A DNA stretch of 64,000 nt from Nocardioides jensenii JCM 1364 = NBRC 14755 (GTDB lineage Bacteria > Actinomycetota > Actinomycetes > Propionibacteriales > Nocardioidaceae). The stretch spans positions 1-64,000 of the forward strand of contig NZ_BCRJ01000039.1 in NCBI RefSeq assembly GCF_001552535.1, written 5' to 3'. Below the pieces are notes generated by a model. It was not told the DNA's origin. It was given only the letters and a program-made list of their open reading frames with translations, and made no database searches. Shown piece by piece: positions 1 to 48,202 of the stretch. Numbering within the stretch: position 1 is the first letter of the stretch; every line of letters begins with the position of its first letter. Both the position numbers and the translations under genes were made by a program.

Positions 1-689
1 TTCAGGTGGGCCTGGGCCACGTCGATGTCGGTGCCGGTGAACGGCGATGCTCCGCCGTTGAGGCAGGCCCACAGCAGGCACCCCAGTGAGTAGATGTCAC
101 TGGCCGGGGTGCCGGGGGAGCCCTGACTGCGTTCGGGGGCCAGCCACGCCCAGGTGCCGGCCACCGCCCCGGTCACGGTCAGACCGAGGCTGTCACCGGT
201 GCGGGCGATGCCGAAGTCGCACAGATAGACATGCGGTTCCGTCGAGTCCGCAGAACGGAGCAGGACGTTGGCAGGTTTCACGTCGCGGTGCACCACTCCC
301 GCCCGGTGGGCGTCGAACAACGCGTCGGCGACCTGGGCACAGATCCGGGCGGCCAACTGCGGGGGCAGCGGGCCGCGGCTGCGCAACAGCGCCCCGAGGT
401 CGCCACCGTCGACGTACTGGGTGGTGATGTAGACGGTGTCGTCGTGGACACCGTGGTCGAAGATCGACACGATGTGGGCCGAGTCGACCCTGGCCAGGGT
501 CGCCGCCTCGTGCGCGAACCGCTCCCGGAAGCTGGTGTCCGAGGCGAGCTGCGGCCACATCACCTTGAGCGCCACGGTGCGGTTCAGCTCGGTGTCCGTG
601 GCCAGGTGGACGACGCCCATGCCGCCGCTGCCGAGCTGACGCTCGATGCGGTAGCGGCCGAACCTCGCGCCCACGGTGCCGGGGGTCAT
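1..689 (-). CDS. Ser/Thr protein kinase, 3' end cut by window edge
   Basis: Eukaryotic-type (Hanks) serine/threonine kinase, read from ATG at 689 and still open at base 1, so about 229 residues are visible. Seen: a glycine-rich loop near residue 20 (GSGGMG), the lysine of VALK, the catalytic loop HRDVKPANVLL, the CDFG magnesium motif and the APER motif. The transmembrane and extracellular parts would lie outside the window. Its ATG overlaps the stop of the upstream kinase gene as ATGA, so translation is probably coupled. It is the last visible member of a four-kinase tandem array with very similar catalytic domains, which suggests local duplication. Substrate and ligand cannot be told from sequence. 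Confidence 0.9.
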   Translation of the reverse strand, partial: MTPGTVGARFGRYRIERQLGSGGMGVVHLATDTELNRTVALKVMWPQLASDTSFRERFAHEAATLARVDSAHIVSIFDHGVHDDTVYITTQYVDGGDLGALLRSRGPLPPQLAARICAQVADALFDAHRAGVVHRDVKPANVLLRSADSTEPHVYLCDFGIARTGDSLGLTVTGAVAGTWAWLAPERSQGSPGTPASDIYSLGCLLWACLNGGASPFTGTDIDVAQAHL

Positions 690-2701
690 GCGATCTCGTC
701 CAAGGCGTCGGGACTGTAGCCGCAGTCAGGGCAGGAGACCCAGTGGGTGAACGGGTCGAAGCCGGTGTCATTGCCGAGAGCGACACGGATCTCGGCGCGG
801 CCGTCCACCTCGGGCACCATCACGATGTCGGTGCGCCGGTCTCCGTTGACGTCGGAGGCGACCAGGATCGCCCCGTCGCCGTGGTCCTTGGGGTCCCGGA
901 TGCGCGGGCCACGGGCGAACCCGTCGTCGCCGTCCGGGGTCCAGATGCGCACGTCGGAGGTCTCGTAGTCGGGGACACGGACCACCAGCGACGCGACGTC
1001 GTCCCCGTCGTTGTCGACGGCGGCCAGGGCGATGTCGCGCGACGACCCGTCCACCCGCGGAGCTCTGGTCGAGGGGACGAAGCGCCCGCCGGTGGAGGTC
1101 AGCATGGCGATGCGGCCGTCGTACTCGATGCGCTTGCCGGCAAAGCTCTGCCCACCCGCGACCACACCGGCGACGTCGTCGTCGCCGTCACCGTCGAAGT
1201 CCCCGAGCGCCAATGTCTTGCCGTCGGACTCGAGCGGAGCGGTGCCCCAGTCGACGGCTCGGGTGAAGGTCCGGCCCCGGTTGAGTGCCACCCGAAGCTG
1301 GAGGGGTGCGTCGTAGTCCGGTGCGGCGCCGAACATGAAGTCGGCACGACCGTCACCGTTGAAGTCGCCGGCGGCGGTGAGGCTGCCTGTGGGGTCCACT
1401 CCGTCGATACGGTAGCCCGCGGTGCGGCCCGTGGCGAACGTGACGAAGATGACGGCCGACTTGACCTCCGCGGTGTCGTCCGCGCCGTCGCCGTCGAAGT
1501 CCGCCCGGAGCGTCGAGACGGACCCGGTGCCGGCGTCGGGCCCACGAACCTGGCCGTCGGCGGCACCGGAGAAGAGAATCGTGCGGGGGGCGGTGTCGAA
1601 GTCGAGCAGCTGGAGGTCGCCGTACCCGTCTCCGTCGAGGTCGCCGACGATCGCCTCGGGTTCGGGAGGCGTCGTGGGTGTGCTCGGTGACGGCTTCGCC
1701 GTCGGCTGGTCCGCACCGTGGTCGCCGGTGGCCCACCAGATGCCGGCCCCGGTCAGGGGAACCAGCACGAGCAGGGCCGCGAGCGCCGGCAGCCAGCGTC
1801 GACGACGGCGACGCGGCGTCGTCACCCTGGGCGCGTAGGTGTCGACGTCGGAGGCGTCGAAGCCGGCAGGTGCGAGATCGGCCAGGGCACGCAGGTCGCG
1901 GGCCATGAGGTCGGCCGACGGATAGCGCCGGGCCGGGTCCTTGGCCATCGAGCCGGCCAGGATGCGGTTCAGCAGTCGGGCAGCAGGGTCGGTGCCGTTG
2001 AACTGCGGCACCGGGGCGTTGCGATGCGCGAGCGCAACCTGCACGTCGGTGCCCGAGTACGGCGGCTGCCCGGTCACCGCCGCCCAGACCAGGCAGCCCA
2101 GGGCGTAGATGTCGCTCGAGGGAGTGGCCGGAGCCCCGAGGGAGCGCTCCGGGGCCAGGTAGGCCCAGGTGCCGGCCACACCGCCGGCCATGGTCAGGCC
2201 CTCCTGCTCGGTCTGCGCGATGCCGAAGTCGCACAGGTAGGCCTGCTGCTTGGGGTGGTCGGGGTCGCGGACCAGGATGTTGGCCGGCTTCACGTCACGG
2301 TGCACGATGCCGGCGCGGTGAGCATCGTCCAGGGCCGCGGCAATCTGCGCGGCGACGGCGGCCGCCATCGGCGGCGGCATCGGGCCACGCCGGTCGACCA
2401 GCTGACCGAGGTCCCCGCCGGCGATGAACTGGGTGGCGATGAACGGGACGCCGTCCTGCTCGCCGTGCTCGAAGATCTGCGTGATGTGCGGCGAGTTCAG
2501 GCGAGCCAGGGCATCGGCCTCGCGGTGGAACCGCTCCAGGAACTCCTCTGACCCGGCGAGCTCGGCCGACATCACCTTGAGGGCGACCGCGCGGCCGAGT
2601 CGGGTGTCGTGGGCGAGGAAGACCATGCCCATCCCACCTCGGCCGAGCAGTCGGTCGAGGTGGTAGCGGCCGAACTCCTGGCCGACCTTCGGTGGGGTCA
2701 C
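686..2701 (-). CDS. Membrane Ser/Thr kinase with extracellular FG-GAP/VCBS-like repeats
   Basis: About 671 residues. The GTG start at 2701 was chosen because it overlaps the previous gene's stop as GTGA; an in-frame ATG at 2752 would lie inside that gene. Order: kinase domain (about 1-270; GRGGMG loop, VALK, HRDVKPANIL, CDFG, APER), an Arg-rich stretch followed by one membrane helix (about 301-320), a Ser/Thr/Pro linker, then a C-terminal half with at least five DxDGDG- or DxNGDG-type motifs spaced as in FG-GAP/VCBS repeats, which bind Ca2+ and fold as beta-propellers. Inferred topology: cytoplasmic kinase, outside propeller-like sensor. PASTA domains, usual in PknB, are absent. The kinase call is firm; the sensor role is inference. 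Confidence 0.92.
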   Translation of the reverse strand: MTPPKVGQEFGRYHLDRLLGRGGMGMVFLAHDTRLGRAVALKVMSAELAGSEEFLERFHREADALARLNSPHITQIFEHGEQDGVPFIATQFIAGGDLGQLVDRRGPMPPPMAAAVAAQIAAALDDAHRAGIVHRDVKPANILVRDPDHPKQQAYLCDFGIAQTEQEGLTMAGGVAGTWAYLAPERSLGAPATPSSDIYALGCLVWAAVTGQPPYSGTDVQVALAHRNAPVPQFNGTDPAARLLNRILAGSMAKDPARRYPSADLMARDLRALADLAPAGFDASDVDTYAPRVTTPRRRRRRWLPALAALLVLVPLTGAGIWWATGDHGADQPTAKPSPSTPTTPPEPEAIVGDLDGDGYGDLQLLDFDTAPRTILFSGAADGQVRGPDAGTGSVSTLRADFDGDGADDTAEVKSAVIFVTFATGRTAGYRIDGVDPTGSLTAAGDFNGDGRADFMFGAAPDYDAPLQLRVALNRGRTFTRAVDWGTAPLESDGKTLALGDFDGDGDDDVAGVVAGGQSFAGKRIEYDGRIAMLTSTGGRFVPSTRAPRVDGSSRDIALAAVDNDGDDVASLVVRVPDYETSDVRIWTPDGDDGFARGPRIRDPKDHGDGAILVASDVNGDRRTDIVMVPEVDGRAEIRVALGNDTGFDPFTHWVSCPDCGYSPDALDEIA

Positions 2702-4776
2702 AGCGCCCGTCCGATCATGTGCCAGGACTCCTTGCAGTCCTTGTTGAGGCACTCGGGTGCGGCCCAGCGGCGTGGCTCGCTGAAGCTGGTCCCGGTCGAG
2801 GTCGCCACGTCGATCGTGACCGCACCGCCCTCGGCGGTGTGGAGGAGGACCGCGTCGGCGAGACCGTCACCGTTGACGTCGGAGGTGATCATGCGGTTGC
2901 TGCCCTCATCGGGGTCTGCGCCGGGATCGTTCGCCCAGGTGACGCCGGCCGAGACCTCGCCGTCCTCCACCTCGAAGACCTGCAGGGTGCTCGACTTCGC
3001 GGTGGCGTGGACGACGATCTCGTCGGTGCCGTCGCCGTCCACGTCGGCGACCTCGAGGGGCGAGGAGTACTCCTCGTCGCCGGTCACCGCGCGTCGCGAG
3101 CTGGCGGTGCCGAAGGAGTCGGCGTCAGAGATCATGACCTGCAGTTGCGGTGTGAGGTGCGGCCTGTCCTTGGTGGGCCTGGGCAGTCGACGCAGGACGA
3201 GGTCGGCGTCGCCGTCGCCGTCGATGTCTCCGGCGCTGAGGTATTCGCTGTAGTCCAACCAGCCCGGCACCACACCCCACTGCTCCGGATCGGTGAATCC
3301 CTCGTCGGAGCTGAGCGCGACCTCGACGATGAGGTCGGTCCGGGCGGCGTCGGGGTCCCGGCCGTAGGACAGGACCAGGTCGTCGCGGCCGTCGCCGTTC
3401 ACATCGGCCAACAGCGGATAGGCCTCCTCACGGTTGGCCTTCTTCGGAAACTCCGCCTCCGAGCGAGTGCCGTCGGCGGCCAGGATCTCCGCGGACAGCG
3501 CGTTCGTCTCGAGGTTCTCGTCGACACCGACCACGTCGACCAGGCCGTCACCGTCGACGTCTCCGCTCACGCTCAGGCCCTCGGTCTGGGTGCGGCGGAC
3601 CGGCGTGCCGAACCTCGTGCCGTCGGAGGTGAACAGGAAGTCGCGACCCTCCTTGTAGGCGTCGCCGAAGTTGTACCAACGGACGAGGACGTCGCCCTTG
3701 CCGTCTCCGTCCACGTCACCGAGGATCGCTGCCGGCTCATCCGAGTCGCCGGGCTCGTCGTCCTTCTGCCACACCGCGTACGCCGTACCGGCGGCGGCGA
3801 GCAGGGCGACCGCGACGGCGACCGGGAGCCAACGCCGACGCCCACGCCGGGCATGCGGCGCGCCGCCGGTGCCGGAGCGCACGGCGGTGCCGGTGTCGGT
3901 CGGCACGGTGGTCGAGGGGGCGGGCGCGACCAGGGCTCGGTCGCCGAACCGGGTGAGCGAGAGGAGGTCGGTGCGGAACTCCTCGGCGGTCGCGTAGCGG
4001 TCACCCGGGTTCTTGGCCAGTGCCCGGGCCAGCACCGCGTTGACCCGGGCCGTGACCGCGTCGTCGCCCACGAACTGGGGCACGGGCTGCTGCACCTGGG
4101 CCAGGGCCACCTCGACGTCGGAGCCGCCGTACGGCGCGTGACCGGTGAGCGTCGCCCACAGCACACAGCCGAGGGCGTAGATGTCGGAGGCCGGGGTGCC
4201 CGGATCGCCCTTGGTGCGTTCGGGAGCCAACCAGGCCCAACTGCCGGCGACGCCGCCGGTCCGGGTCAACCCGGTGGTGCCGGTGTGGGCGATGCCGAAG
4301 TCGCACAGGTAGGCGAAGGGCTCGGATCCGCGGTCGCGCAGCAGCACGTTGGTGGGCTTGACGTCTCGGTGCACGACGCCGGCGCGGTGGGCGTCGTCGA
4401 GCGCTCCGGCGATCTGGGCGCAGAGCGTGGCGGCGCGGGTCAGCGGCAGTGGGCCCTCGTCGCGCAGCACGTCGCCCAGGTCACCGCCGCGCACGAACTG
4501 GGTGGAGATCCACGGGACGCCGTCCTCGACGCCGTGGTCGTGGATGGTCACCACGTGCGGGGAGTCGAGCCTGGCCATCACGTCGGCCTCGCGCTCGAAG
4601 CGTTGGGTGAACTCGTCGTCACCGTGCAGGCGGCCGGCCATCACCTTCAACGCGACCGTGCGGTTGAGCCGGGTGTCGGTGGCCCGGAAGACCACGCCCA
4701 TGCCGCCCATGCCGATGCGCTCTTCGATCAGGTAGCGCCCGAAACGACTGCCGGGTGAGGGGGAGTTGAGGTTCAT
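2698..4776 (-). CDS. Membrane Ser/Thr kinase with extracellular FG-GAP/VCBS-like repeats
   Basis: 692 residues, ATG start, 13 bases after the stop of the upstream kinase gene. The N-terminal Hanks domain shows GMGGMG, VALK, HRDVKPTNVLL, CDFG and APER. One membrane helix at about 313-335 follows an Arg-rich stop-transfer stretch (RRGRRRW). The ectodomain has repeated DVDGDG, DVNGDG and DIDGDG calcium-loop motifs, as in FG-GAP/VCBS repeats. The C-terminus has a Cys pair (CLNKDC), a possible disulfide if exported. It is paralogous to the next gene with the same architecture; both keep the kinase and the repeat ectodomain. Probably an envelope sensor kinase; the ligand is unknown. Confidence 0.92.
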   Translation of the reverse strand: MNLNSPSPGSRFGRYLIEERIGMGGMGVVFRATDTRLNRTVALKVMAGRLHGDDEFTQRFEREADVMARLDSPHVVTIHDHGVEDGVPWISTQFVRGGDLGDVLRDEGPLPLTRAATLCAQIAGALDDAHRAGVVHRDVKPTNVLLRDRGSEPFAYLCDFGIAHTGTTGLTRTGGVAGSWAWLAPERTKGDPGTPASDIYALGCVLWATLTGHAPYGGSDVEVALAQVQQPVPQFVGDDAVTARVNAVLARALAKNPGDRYATAEEFRTDLLSLTRFGDRALVAPAPSTTVPTDTGTAVRSGTGGAPHARRGRRRWLPVAVAVALLAAAGTAYAVWQKDDEPGDSDEPAAILGDVDGDGKGDVLVRWYNFGDAYKEGRDFLFTSDGTRFGTPVRRTQTEGLSVSGDVDGDGLVDVVGVDENLETNALSAEILAADGTRSEAEFPKKANREEAYPLLADVNGDGRDDLVLSYGRDPDAARTDLIVEVALSSDEGFTDPEQWGVVPGWLDYSEYLSAGDIDGDGDADLVLRRLPRPTKDRPHLTPQLQVMISDADSFGTASSRRAVTGDEEYSSPLEVADVDGDGTDEIVVHATAKSSTLQVFEVEDGEVSAGVTWANDPGADPDEGSNRMITSDVNGDGLADAVLLHTAEGGAVTIDVATSTGTSFSEPRRWAAPECLNKDCKESWHMIGRAL

Positions 4777-4789
4777 GTCGCGCTTCGGG

Positions 4790-6475
4790 TCACAGTCCGT
4801 CAGGGCACCCGGCCGGCGGGTGCTGTGGGTCGCTGATGCAGGCGTAGTAGCTCGGGAGCGGCGGCTCGGTGTCCGGTCGGGGGAACAGCAGGTCGGGGTT
4901 CTGTGCGGTGGCGAGCAGGGTGTCGCCCGTGATGCGCACCTTGGACTTCAGCTTGTCGATGGCAGCGGATGCGGGCACTCGCTGGATCCGTTCCCCGACG
5001 GAGATCTCCGGCCGTCCGGTGGTCAGGTCGCCGGGAATGGAGACCCGGTGCGACAGCTCGGTGCTGCCGTCGATGTGGAACCAGGTCTCGAGGGCGACGG
5101 TGCCGTCGGCGGCGGTGAGCAGCCGGCAGGCCGACAGCTCGCTGTTGAGGTCCTTGCACGTCGCGGTCAGGGCGTACTTGTCGTCCGAGGGGATGTGGGA
5201 GACCCGCAGGCTGACCGAGTAGTCCTTGCTCCTGCTGTCGACGGTCCACTGGGTGGCGATGTCCCACTCGCTCGGGTCGAGGTCTCGGGGCATGCCGTCG
5301 ACGATGTTGCCCTGCGTCACGCTCCAGGTGTGGGCCTTCGGATCTTCGGGGGTCCCGGCAGGGAACAGGGCGACGATCGCGTCCGTGAGAACGGCGGCTC
5401 GCGACCCCGGCTCATCGGTGTCGGTGGGATCCGTCGTGGCGCTGGTCGTCTCGGTGGTCGTGTCGGTCGCCGGGGTGTCCGAGGTCGCACCGCTGCTCGG
5501 GTCGTCGGCACCGGGGTTGCTGTCGTCGTCGTTCTGCGCGATCGCCCACACGGCGCCCCCGACACCCAGGGCGATCACGAGTGCGGCGCAGGCCGCGATC
5601 AGGGCACCGCCCTTGCGTGGCCTCCGTGGAGCAGGTGGTGGCAGGGGTCGCGGCCCGTCGGCCAGGAGGGCCGCGCGGAACTCGCCGGCACTGGCGAACC
5701 GCTGGGTCGGGTCCTTGGCCATCGCTCGTTCCAGGACGGTGTTGAGGTGGCGGGCGTCGACCCCGGGTAGTTGTCTCACCGGAGCGTTCACGTGCGCCTG
5801 CGCCACCTGCAGGTCCGAGCCGGCGTACGGCGCATCACCGGTGAGGCACGCCCACAACACGCATCCGAGGGCGTAGATGTCGCTGGCCGGGGAGGCGGGG
5901 GCGCCGTTGAGTCGTTCGGGGGAGAGGTAGGCCCAGGACCCGGCGACCGCACCCGTCGCGGTCTGACCGTGCTGCCCGGGCAGGTCGCCGGCCTGCGCGA
6001 TACCGAAGTCGCAGAGATAGGTGAACAGTGAGGGCGCATCGGGATCGCGCACCAGCACGTTGGCCGGTTTGACGTCGCGGTGCACGATGCCGCTGCGGTG
6101 GGCGTCGTCGAGCGCCTCGGCCAGTTGGCCGACCAGTGCCACCGCTGCCGGGCGGGGCAGCGGACCGCGGCTCCGCAACAGGGCGCCCAGGTCGCCGCCA
6201 CCGACGAGCTGGGTGGCGATGTAGGCCGAGCCGTCGTGCTCGCCGTGCTCGAAGATCGACACGATGTGCGGCGAGTCGAGCCGGGCGAGGATCGAGGCCT
6301 CCCGCTGGAAGCGGGCGGCGAACCCGGGGTCCCCGGCGAGGTTGGAGGAGACCACCTTGAGTGCCACGCGCCGGCCTAGCCGGGTGTCCGTGGCAGCGAA
6401 GACCACACCCATGCCGCCAGAGCCCAGCCGCGACTCGATGCGGTAGGGCCCGAAATTGCTGCCAGGAGTCAACAT
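4790..6475 (-). CDS. Membrane Ser/Thr kinase with unique ectodomain
   Basis: 561 residues from ATG 6475; an upstream in-frame start at 6517 would only add a tail unlike its paralogues, whose proteins begin shortly before FGPYRIE-like sequence. First gene of the minus-strand kinase array. Kinase motifs: GSGGMG, VALK, HRDVKPANVL, CDFG, SPER. A membrane helix at about 287-312 is followed by a Thr/Ser/Asp-rich linker and a domain of about 200 residues with several cysteines (CKDLNSELSAC, and a Cys pair near the C-terminus). Unlike the next two genes it has no FG-GAP motifs, so the ectodomain was swapped or has diverged. Divergently transcribed from purD across 78 bases. Confidence 0.9.
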   Translation of the reverse strand: MLTPGSNFGPYRIESRLGSGGMGVVFAATDTRLGRRVALKVVSSNLAGDPGFAARFQREASILARLDSPHIVSIFEHGEHDGSAYIATQLVGGGDLGALLRSRGPLPRPAAVALVGQLAEALDDAHRSGIVHRDVKPANVLVRDPDAPSLFTYLCDFGIAQAGDLPGQHGQTATGAVAGSWAYLSPERLNGAPASPASDIYALGCVLWACLTGDAPYAGSDLQVAQAHVNAPVRQLPGVDARHLNTVLERAMAKDPTQRFASAGEFRAALLADGPRPLPPPAPRRPRKGGALIAACAALVIALGVGGAVWAIAQNDDDSNPGADDPSSGATSDTPATDTTTETTSATTDPTDTDEPGSRAAVLTDAIVALFPAGTPEDPKAHTWSVTQGNIVDGMPRDLDPSEWDIATQWTVDSRSKDYSVSLRVSHIPSDDKYALTATCKDLNSELSACRLLTAADGTVALETWFHIDGSTELSHRVSIPGDLTTGRPEISVGERIQRVPASAAIDKLKSKVRITGDTLLATAQNPDLLFPRPDTEPPLPSYYACISDPQHPPAGCPDGL

Positions 6476-6539
6476 GTCGGGCCCATCTTGCCTCACGCGG
6501 ATCCCGCAGACGCCCATGCACCACGCGGTGAGCGGTCGG

Positions 6540-6545
6540 TAGGAT
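6540..6545 (+). promoter_or_regulatory. purD -10 hexamer, leaderless start
   Basis: TAGGAT, 8 bases before the GTG of purD. Transcription would begin at or next to the start codon, and there is no Shine-Dalgarno sequence. The region is shared with the divergent kinase array. Confidence 0.55.
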
Positions 6546-6553
6546 CACCGCCC

Positions 6554-7822
6554 GTGAAGACTCTCGTCATCGGCACCGGCGGCCGCGAACACGCCCTCGT
6601 TCTCGCACTCGCCAACGACCCGGGGGTCACGGAGGTGCACGCGGCGCCGGGCAACCCGGGCATCGCTGCCGATGCCACCCTCCATGCGGTCGACCCCATG
6701 GACGGTGCCGCCGTTGCCGAGCTGGCCGTCGAGATCGGTGCGGACCTGGTCATCGTCGGACCGGAGGCGCCGCTGGTCGCCGGAGTCGCCGATGCGGTGA
6801 CCGGACGGGGCATCACCTGCTTCGGGCCGACCCTGGCCGCCGCGCGACTCGAGGGATCGAAGGCGTTCAGCAAGGAGGTGATGGCCGCGGCCGGTGTGCC
6901 GACCGCCGGTTCGCTCACCTGCACGACCCCGGATGAGGCCGCGGCCGCGCTGGACGCGTTCGGGGCGCCGTACGTCGTCAAGGACGATGCGTTGGCTGCC
7001 GGCAAGGGAGTGGTCGTCACCGGCGATCGCGACGAGGCCCTGGCCCACGCGGCCACCTGCGGCACCGTGGTGGTCGAGGAGTTCCTCGACGGTCCCGAGG
7101 TGTCGGTGTTCGCGGTCTGCGACGGCGCCACCGCCCACGCCCTGCGCCCGGCCCAGGACTTCAAGCGCATCTTCGACGGCGGTCGCGGCGCCAACACCGG
7201 CGGGATGGGGTCCTACACCCCGCTCACCTGGGCGCCCGGCGACCTCGCCGCGACGGTGCTCGAGACCGTCGTGCAGCCCACCCTCGACGAGATGGTTCGC
7301 CGCGGTACGCCGTTCCGCGGCTGCCTCTATGTGGGGCTCGCGCTGACCGAGGCCGGACCGAAGGTGATCGAGTTCAACGTGCGCTTCGGCGACCCCGACA
7401 TCCAGCCGGTGCTGGCCACGCTCGAGTCGCCGTTGGGCGAGCTGCTGCTCGCTGCCGCCCAGGGCCGGCTCGCCGAGGTGCCCGCCCCCACCTTCCGTGA
7501 CGACGCCTGCGTCACCGTGGTGCTGGCCTCCGCCGGCTATCCGGAGTCATCGTCGAAGGGTGACGTGATCACCGGTGTCGGTGCGGCCAACGGCGTCAAC
7601 GATGTCGACGTGATCCATGCGGGGACGGCGATCGTCGACGGATCGCTGGTGACCGCCGGCGGCCGGGTGCTCGCCGTACGCGCCGTGGGTTATGACGTCG
7701 ACGACGCTCGGGCGCGGGCCTATGCGGCTGCCGACCTGATCACGTTCGAGGGCATGCAGCGTCGCAGCGACATCGCCGCCGAACCGCTCGGTGTGGTCGA
7801 GGGTGCCGCCGCACGCGACTGA
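6554..7822 (+). CDS. purD: Phosphoribosylamine-glycine ligase
   Basis: GAR synthetase, second step of purine synthesis: phosphoribosylamine + glycine + ATP to GAR. 422 residues, the usual PurD length, with N-terminal VKTLVIGTGGREHAL (the GGREHA signature), a central ATP-grasp domain and the family motif RFGDPDIQPVL. The GTG at 6554 is chosen because the signature begins a few residues later and a TAGGAT -10 lies just upstream; extending to the ATG at 6488 would add unrelated residues and destroy the promoter. purB follows after about 80 bases, probably with its own promoter. Confidence 0.97.
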   Translation: MKTLVIGTGGREHALVLALANDPGVTEVHAAPGNPGIAADATLHAVDPMDGAAVAELAVEIGADLVIVGPEAPLVAGVADAVTGRGITCFGPTLAAARLEGSKAFSKEVMAAAGVPTAGSLTCTTPDEAAAALDAFGAPYVVKDDALAAGKGVVVTGDRDEALAHAATCGTVVVEEFLDGPEVSVFAVCDGATAHALRPAQDFKRIFDGGRGANTGGMGSYTPLTWAPGDLAATVLETVVQPTLDEMVRRGTPFRGCLYVGLALTEAGPKVIEFNVRFGDPDIQPVLATLESPLGELLLAAAQGRLAEVPAPTFRDDACVTVVLASAGYPESSSKGDVITGVGAANGVNDVDVIHAGTAIVDGSLVTAGGRVLAVRAVGYDVDDARARAYAAADLITFEGMQRRSDIAAEPLGVVEGAAARD

Positions 7823-47200: not shown

Positions 47201-48202
47201 TCAGCGCACCAGCTCGGTGATGCCGTAGGCGGCCCCGAAGGTGCCGGCCAGCACGAGCACGCAGACCAGGGCCAGCAGCCAGCCGGGCATCCCGGAACCG
47301 GGCTCGGAGTCGTGGCGCACAGGGACGGTCGCGGGCGCGGCCTGCCGCGCCGTGGTCGGCGTGCTCCGGTGGGCAGAGGGGTCGGTCAGGGCCGAGCGGA
47401 GCGCGGTGGAGAACGACGCCACGTCCGGCCAGCGGTCCTCGGGGTCGGCGGCCAGCGCACGGGCCAGCACGCTGTCGACCGCCGGTGGCAACGGTGCGAG
47501 GACGGAGGGCGCAACCGGCACCTTGGCGTCGGCCAGCGAGCCGATGCCGCCCTCACGGGCCAGCTTGCCGGTGAGCATCTGGTAGGCCACCGCGCCCAGC
47601 GCGTGCACGTCGGCGCGAGTGTCCAGCGGTGCGCCGGTCGCCTGCTCGGGGGCCATGTAGGCCGGTGTGCCGACCACCTGGGTCAGGCCGCTGGCGTGCA
47701 ACATCGCCTTGGCCACGCCGAGGTCGGCGACCAGCAGCTTGGTGGCCCCGGTATCGGTGACGGATGCGCCGCGTGAGCTGAGCAGCAGGTTGTGGGGCTT
47801 GATGTCGCGGTGGATCACACCGTGCCCGTGCAGCACGGAGAGCCCCGCGGCGGCCTGGTCGACGAGATCGATGACCTGTGCCGGCGGCATCGGCCTTCCC
47901 GGCTCGAGCAGGGTGGCCAGGGAGCCGCGGTCGGCGTACGACATCACGAAGTACGGCGTGCCGTCGGCCTCGCCGATGTCGTAGACCCGCACCACGTGGT
48001 CGGAGTCGGCCCGGCGCAGGATGCGCGCCTCCTCCAGGAACCGGTCGCGAACGTCGTAGCGCTGGGCCCAGTTCTCCGCGAGCGCCTTCACGGCGACGTC
48101 GGAGTCGAGTTCGTCGTCGTGGTAGAGCCAGACGGTGGCGAACCCACCGACACCGATGCGGCCCACCCGCTGGAGACGACCGAGGCGCTCTGGCAGGGAC
48201 AC
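47201..48202 (-). CDS. Ser/Thr protein kinase with C-terminal membrane anchor
   Basis: 333 residues, GTG start. Kinase domain: GRIGVGGFATVW, VAVKAL, HRDIKPHNLLL, APEQ. The magnesium motif is DLG (LLVADLGVAK) instead of DFG, as in some active kinases. A Pro/Ser linker and one membrane helix at the very C-terminus (PGWLLALVCVLVLAGTFGAAYGI) anchor it with almost no outside part, so it cannot sense ligands directly. Divergent from the ECF sigma factor gene; may control it. Confidence 0.9.
   Translation of the reverse strand: MSLPERLGRLQRVGRIGVGGFATVWLYHDDELDSDVAVKALAENWAQRYDVRDRFLEEARILRRADSDHVVRVYDIGEADGTPYFVMSYADRGSLATLLEPGRPMPPAQVIDLVDQAAAGLSVLHGHGVIHRDIKPHNLLLSSRGASVTDTGATKLLVADLGVAKAMLHASGLTQVVGTPAYMAPEQATGAPLDTRADVHALGAVAYQMLTGKLAREGGIGSLADAKVPVAPSVLAPLPPAVDSVLARALAADPEDRWPDVASFSTALRSALTDPSAHRSTPTTARQAAPATVPVRHDSEPGSGMPGWLLALVCVLVLAGTFGAAYGITELVR

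Follow-up and report, generated by a model that had tools for sequence, protein, structure and literature searches.

Bacterial receptor Ser/Thr kinases with an extracellular propeller or a PknH-type sensor are already known (PMC3601408, PMC1262709). PknD of Mycobacterium tuberculosis is described as a cytoplasmic kinase joined by a membrane helix to an extracellular six-bladed propeller, a plan predicted for five of the kinases reported here (PMC3601408, PMC1262709). The PknD propeller, however, is of the NHL type, whereas these array kinases carry FG-GAP/VCBS propellers with Ca-type loops, are present in multiple copies and have fast-changing ectodomains; no NHL repeat was matched in them by Pfam at E<=1, FG-GAP being assigned instead. 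PASTA kinases (PknB, StkP, Stk1) have a related kinase domain, but the array kinases lack PASTA repeats, and the NCBIfam PASTA-kinase model scored 274 bits on array kinase B against a cut-off of 450, matching the kinase part alone. The nearest solved sequence relative of the array propellers, and a strong fold match, is UmbA4 (9oee) from the umbrella particles of Streptomyces coelicolor, which reportedly shares with them conserved Ca-type loops and divergent pocket positions, and has the six blades predicted for them. UmbA4 is not a kinase receptor, however, but a lectin secreted as part of an antibacterial particle. In its available text, a paper on the VCBS propeller superfamily names a kinase once only, PknD (PMC8023676). 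A search of the open-access literature, with most subscription papers outside its scope, returned no report of FG-GAP or VCBS Ser/Thr receptor kinases; what appears to be new here is the combination of FG-GAP/VCBS heads with an otherwise known propeller receptor-kinase plan.

We analysed a stretch of 64,000 nucleotides of Nocardioides jensenii (hereafter, the window) that begins contig C39 of a 5.1-Mb assembly in 187 contigs. According to the open reading frame list and Pfam, positions 1-6475 contain four minus-strand genes, A-D, each with a Hanks-type kinase domain and, apart from the truncation of A, intact in appearance (Table 1). PF00069 exceeded the Pfam cut-off in all four, confirming the original prediction of four membrane Ser/Thr kinases in tandem. 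Its further claims of FG-GAP repeats in two genes and of stop/start overlaps joining three also held: PF13517 and PF01839 are above cut-off in B and C (as well as in the remainder of A, discussed below), and the overlaps are GTGA at C/B and ATGA at B/A, while D ends 13 bp upstream of C without overlap. No Pfam PASTA match was obtained in A-D, and the description of these proteins as envelope sensors without PASTA domains holds up by architecture. The D ectodomain received no Pfam assignment. A scan of positions 6300-6800 revealed no sigma-70-type promoter, although such a scan says little for this organism. Elsewhere in the window, at 47201-48202, a further membrane Ser/Thr kinase adjoins a divergent reading frame, which we take to be sigma-factor-like.

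Table 1. Features of the kinase array and its flanks (window positions, unless a locus is named).
Feature	Position	Strand	Remark
Gene A, N-terminal kinase part, 229 aa, truncated by contig end	3..689	-	Remainder probably on contig C146
Gene B, kinase + TM + six-loop FG-GAP propeller, 671 aa, GTG start	686..2701	-	Overlaps start of A
B transmembrane helix, residues about 304-324	1730..1792	-	
B FG-GAP/VCBS propeller, residues about 354-657	731..1642	-	
B Ca-type loops			Start residues 354, 401, 446, 501, 563, 617
Gene C, kinase + TM + FG-GAP propeller, 692 aa	2698..4776	-	Overlaps start of B
C propeller region, as taken into ectodomain alignment	2701..3741	-	
Gene D, kinase + TM + four-Cys alpha/beta domain, 561 aa	4790..6475	-	
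D folded ectodomain	4793..5413	-	4 Cys conserved in 11/11 aligned family members
Divergent intergenic region, kinase array to purD	6476..6556	none	
purD (GARS), slot flank	6557..7822	+	
purA, other slot flank, on contig C146	L046 9688-10977		

Gene A had been listed as the kinase whose outside part was not visible. At the end of contig C146 (locus L046), a 387-aa open frame encodes a hydrophobic helix followed by an FG-GAP propeller, without a kinase; two more FG-GAP kinases, first F and then E, separate it from purA. The A kinase part and this C146 half have a common closest relative, G105_16917 (75% and 59% identity, respectively), compared with which about 66 residues are absent between them. 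Because the two halves share their best relative, and because purA lies upstream of purD in 111/111 genomes having both on one contig, the join of C39 to C146 is very likely. It is unproven and rests on synteny and homology: no overlap was found between the contig ends, and the missing piece of gene A was sought and not located. Read past base 1 in this way, gene A very probably continues on C146, with its transmembrane helix and FG-GAP propeller there. The full locus is then probably purA, E F A B C D, purD (D, C, B, A, F, E counted from purD); that is, the predicted array is real, but probably comprises six kinases rather than four, part of them off contig C39. All six (A-F) retain the catalytic VALK, HRDVKPxN and DFG motifs, and hence the VAxK, HRD and DFG residues of Hanks-type kinases. 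The outside parts, said originally to differ from gene to gene, are mostly of one type: A, B, C, E and F share an FG-GAP/VCBS ectodomain with six Ca-type loops, predicted to form a six-bladed propeller, and D is the sole exception.

Across Nocardioides, the purA-purD junction behaves as a slot of variable content. We took purA from 115 of the 117 genomes in which it was matched (the partial matches in G004 and G093 were omitted; G031 had no match) and purD from each of the 115 genomes in which it was matched (a second match in G101 and a second piece in G023 were omitted). In four of the 115 genomes contributing purA (G000, G095, G076 and G115), purD is missing from the purA contig; G115, where propeller kinases lie near purA and purD is on a different contig, was not counted. 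Across the remaining 111 genomes, the gap between the two genes was at most 250 bp in 43, 250-1000 bp in 15 and 1-10 kb in 53. Inserts longer than 700 bp numbered 61, and were examined as 60 fetched inserts plus, separately, that of G105, a close relative with three kinases in the slot. Kinase ORFs were present in 22 of the 60 inserts (one in 11, two in 11), giving 33 ORFs, all antiparallel to purD and 31 of them bearing FG-GAP motifs. The highest number of slot kinases observed is that of the window's genome, with probably six.

Several further arrangements were observed. In G011, G039, G052, G072, G110 and G113, purD is inverted relative to purA, yet still its neighbour. A second propeller-kinase pair is encoded on contig C111 of the window's genome (L047 8543-12786), adjoining a DnaK-like gene, and its counterpart in G105 (locus L118) is a second array of four. 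A kinase-like frame with an internal TGA at L052 (G000:C24:62602-63450) is probably a decayed gene. In another family of the order (G296, G314, G329, G331, G343 and G375), FG-GAP propellers were found in frames of about 1340-1440 aa.

Assignment of the array ectodomains to the FG-GAP/VCBS group is based on family matches together with repeated DxDxDG loops, six of which align, and agrees with the original prediction. The structure predicted for the product of gene B (mean pLDDT 82.0, pTM 0.63) combines a PknA/B-like kinase with a propeller having six Ca-type loops and six strands, one after each loop. Kinases filled the structural match list for the full-length model, with PknA, PknB and PknE among the solved kinases closest to B. 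Compared with UmbA4, the B model gave Z 27.3 over 316 residues, in a row that spans model residues 177-671, so that the propeller by itself was poorly assessed in this comparison. When the propeller profile was compared with solved structures, UmbA4 was matched at E 3e-39 and the runner-up at E 3.6e-15. The same profile also detected CRTAC1, integrins and polysaccharide lyases, so that the superfamily is not confined to lectins.

The six-bladed propeller of UmbA4 is described as binding a teichuronic-acid-like wall polymer (PMC13274773), and because UmbA4 is the nearest solved relative of the array propellers, we favour a reading in which these sense glycopolymers. A possible, though doubtful, alternative is that the propellers serve, in the manner of integrins or PknD, as scaffolds that bind proteins or peptides, and that the kinases sense contact or protein complexes. 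Such a role would fit the profile matches to integrin alpha chains and CRTAC1, and the propeller of PknD, described as having no known ligand, has been proposed to form a binding cup (PMC3601408); however, the best relative by far is a glycan-binding propeller, and the integrin alpha propeller has seven blades (PMC8023676), compared with six Ca-type loops here.

Conservation is unevenly distributed within these proteins. Among 46 aligned proteins, six Ca-type loops are kept in 25, five in 17 and four in 4, and the loops are the most conserved part, their mean entropy being 1.03 bits, compared with 1.37 in the kinase and 2.77 elsewhere in the propeller. (Alignment A3 differs from A1 in that the G033 C11 kinase row was dropped and the C146 half of A added.) A coarse, strand-level comparison with UmbA4 showed conserved and variable strand positions alternating, as expected of any propeller. 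For seven ortholog pairs, dN/dS was 0.06-0.23 in the kinases and 0.27-0.82 in the ectodomains, with no pair above 1; a pseudokinase pair gave similar values for kinase and ectodomain (0.36, 0.42), and the purA control gave 0.005-0.17 (five pairs; missing for one of six tried). These data point to a conserved loop scaffold beneath a fast-changing remainder of the propeller, in which high dN/dS can reflect relaxed constraint as an alternative to diversifying selection.

The same measurements bear on whether the slot is a mere insertion hotspot between housekeeping genes, its kinases having no common function and drifting under weak constraint. The inserts are indeed diverse in content: a response-regulator/PAS/histidine-kinase hybrid occupies 12 of the 60 (L210 1391-3280 and 11 other loci), and 5 of the 33 slot kinase ORFs have no recognisable HRD motif. 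We nevertheless consider this explanation improbable, given the intact catalytic residues of all six array kinases, the low kinase dN/dS, the conserved Ca-type loops and the fixed orientation of the kinase ORFs. In five of its 12 inserts, the PAS-histidine-kinase hybrid co-occurs with Ser/Thr kinases.

The original prediction had explained the array by gene duplication with ectodomain swapping. We compared trees of 56 kinase rows and 47 propeller rows, drawn from the fetched loci and so a subset of all kinase matches. The trees have 26 of 44 splits in common, whereas 200 label shuffles gave a mean of 0.245 and a maximum of 2. Each tree recovers the trios {A, E, G105_16917}, {B, F, G105_14850} and {C, G003, G105_12677}; well-supported conflicts are confined to one orthologous group. 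Path lengths over all pairs correlate weakly between the trees (Spearman 0.16), perhaps as a result of saturation and degenerate kinases. The two histories thus largely agree, close to the full concordance set beforehand as the outcome contrary to swapping, and we rejected swapping among the propeller kinases. Duplication, on the other hand, is upheld: B groups with F, and A groups with E, and therefore a two-gene block (B-A) was probably duplicated to give F-E. Block duplication followed by fast ectodomain divergence would, on this comparison, account for the propeller kinases.

Gene D requires separate treatment. Its ectodomain had been called Cys-rich, a candidate description that we rejected, as it contains only 4 Cys in about 249 residues, although these are invariant among the aligned members. 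The D domain is confidently predicted to adopt an alpha/beta fold (pLDDT 88.6); Pfam and PDB profile searches yielded nothing significant, and Foldseek no match at E<=0.001. Like D, the PknH sensor (4esq) is a kinase ectodomain, and it is described as having two disulfides (PMC3601408), but its fold match to the D model is weak (Z 6.9 over 132 residues, 12% identity), other structures score at least as high (4tmd, itself a weak match at Z 8.2), and the two are not matched at sequence level in Pfam or PDB. The D domain was detected in 8 of 196 genomes searched, the window's own included, on four backbones: (i) a predicted active kinase, (ii) a pseudokinase, (iii) an N-terminal helical region, in six proteins, and (iv) three other transmembrane proteins, having neither a kinase or pseudokinase nor that region. 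The pseudokinase, in G103, shares the four-Cys domain and has a propeller kinase as its neighbour in the purA-purD slot. Because the D kinase groups with it in the kinase tree (support 93/69 on a long branch, and not firm), D may be a long-established lineage and not the product of a recent swap at this locus. At L147, L148 and L149, D-domain proteins with the N-terminal helical region, which is unnamed, adjoin a further gene, presumably response-regulator-like.

A weaker form of the swapping claim survives for D, its domain being found on several backbones. As an account of the whole array, in which one kinase module was joined repeatedly to different ectodomains, swapping could draw on these four backbone kinds and on the position of D next to propeller kinases, but with kinase and propeller trees in agreement and FG-GAP motifs on nearly all slot kinase ORFs, we regard it as very unlikely.

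With about even confidence, we propose that the locus is a purA-purD slot holding an array of probably six receptor kinases that read surface glycopolymers, the ligand being inferred from the relatives of the propeller. In five of them, a PknA/B-like kinase inside the cell would be linked through a single membrane helix to a six-bladed VCBS propeller outside it, and the sixth, D, would present its small four-cysteine domain outside. Each propeller, its blades stabilised by Ca2+, would recognise one specific surface glycopolymer, probably from the wall of the cell itself or of its neighbours; binding would bring kinase domains together for trans-phosphorylation, passing a signal inward. Signalling by dimerisation is described for PknD and PknB (PMC3601408). 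Duplication of the B-A block to give F-E, and rapid ectodomain change, would have retuned specificity. More speculatively, and with rather low confidence, the system could correspond, in bacteria, to the lectin receptor kinases of plants: kinases of variable copy number with fast-evolving propellers would read hypervariable teichuronic-acid-type wall glycopolymers, so as to distinguish own surfaces from foreign ones or to detect glycan-directed attack, and pseudokinases would serve as decoys or modulators.

For one genus, the analysis describes signalling proteins housed in a purA-purD slot of variable content. The ligands of bacterial receptor kinases are mostly unknown, and here a kinase ectodomain is tied to a solved glycan-binding propeller; with a series of orthologs and paralogs in which the kinases are conserved and the heads diverge, sensing by propeller kinases would become a testable question.
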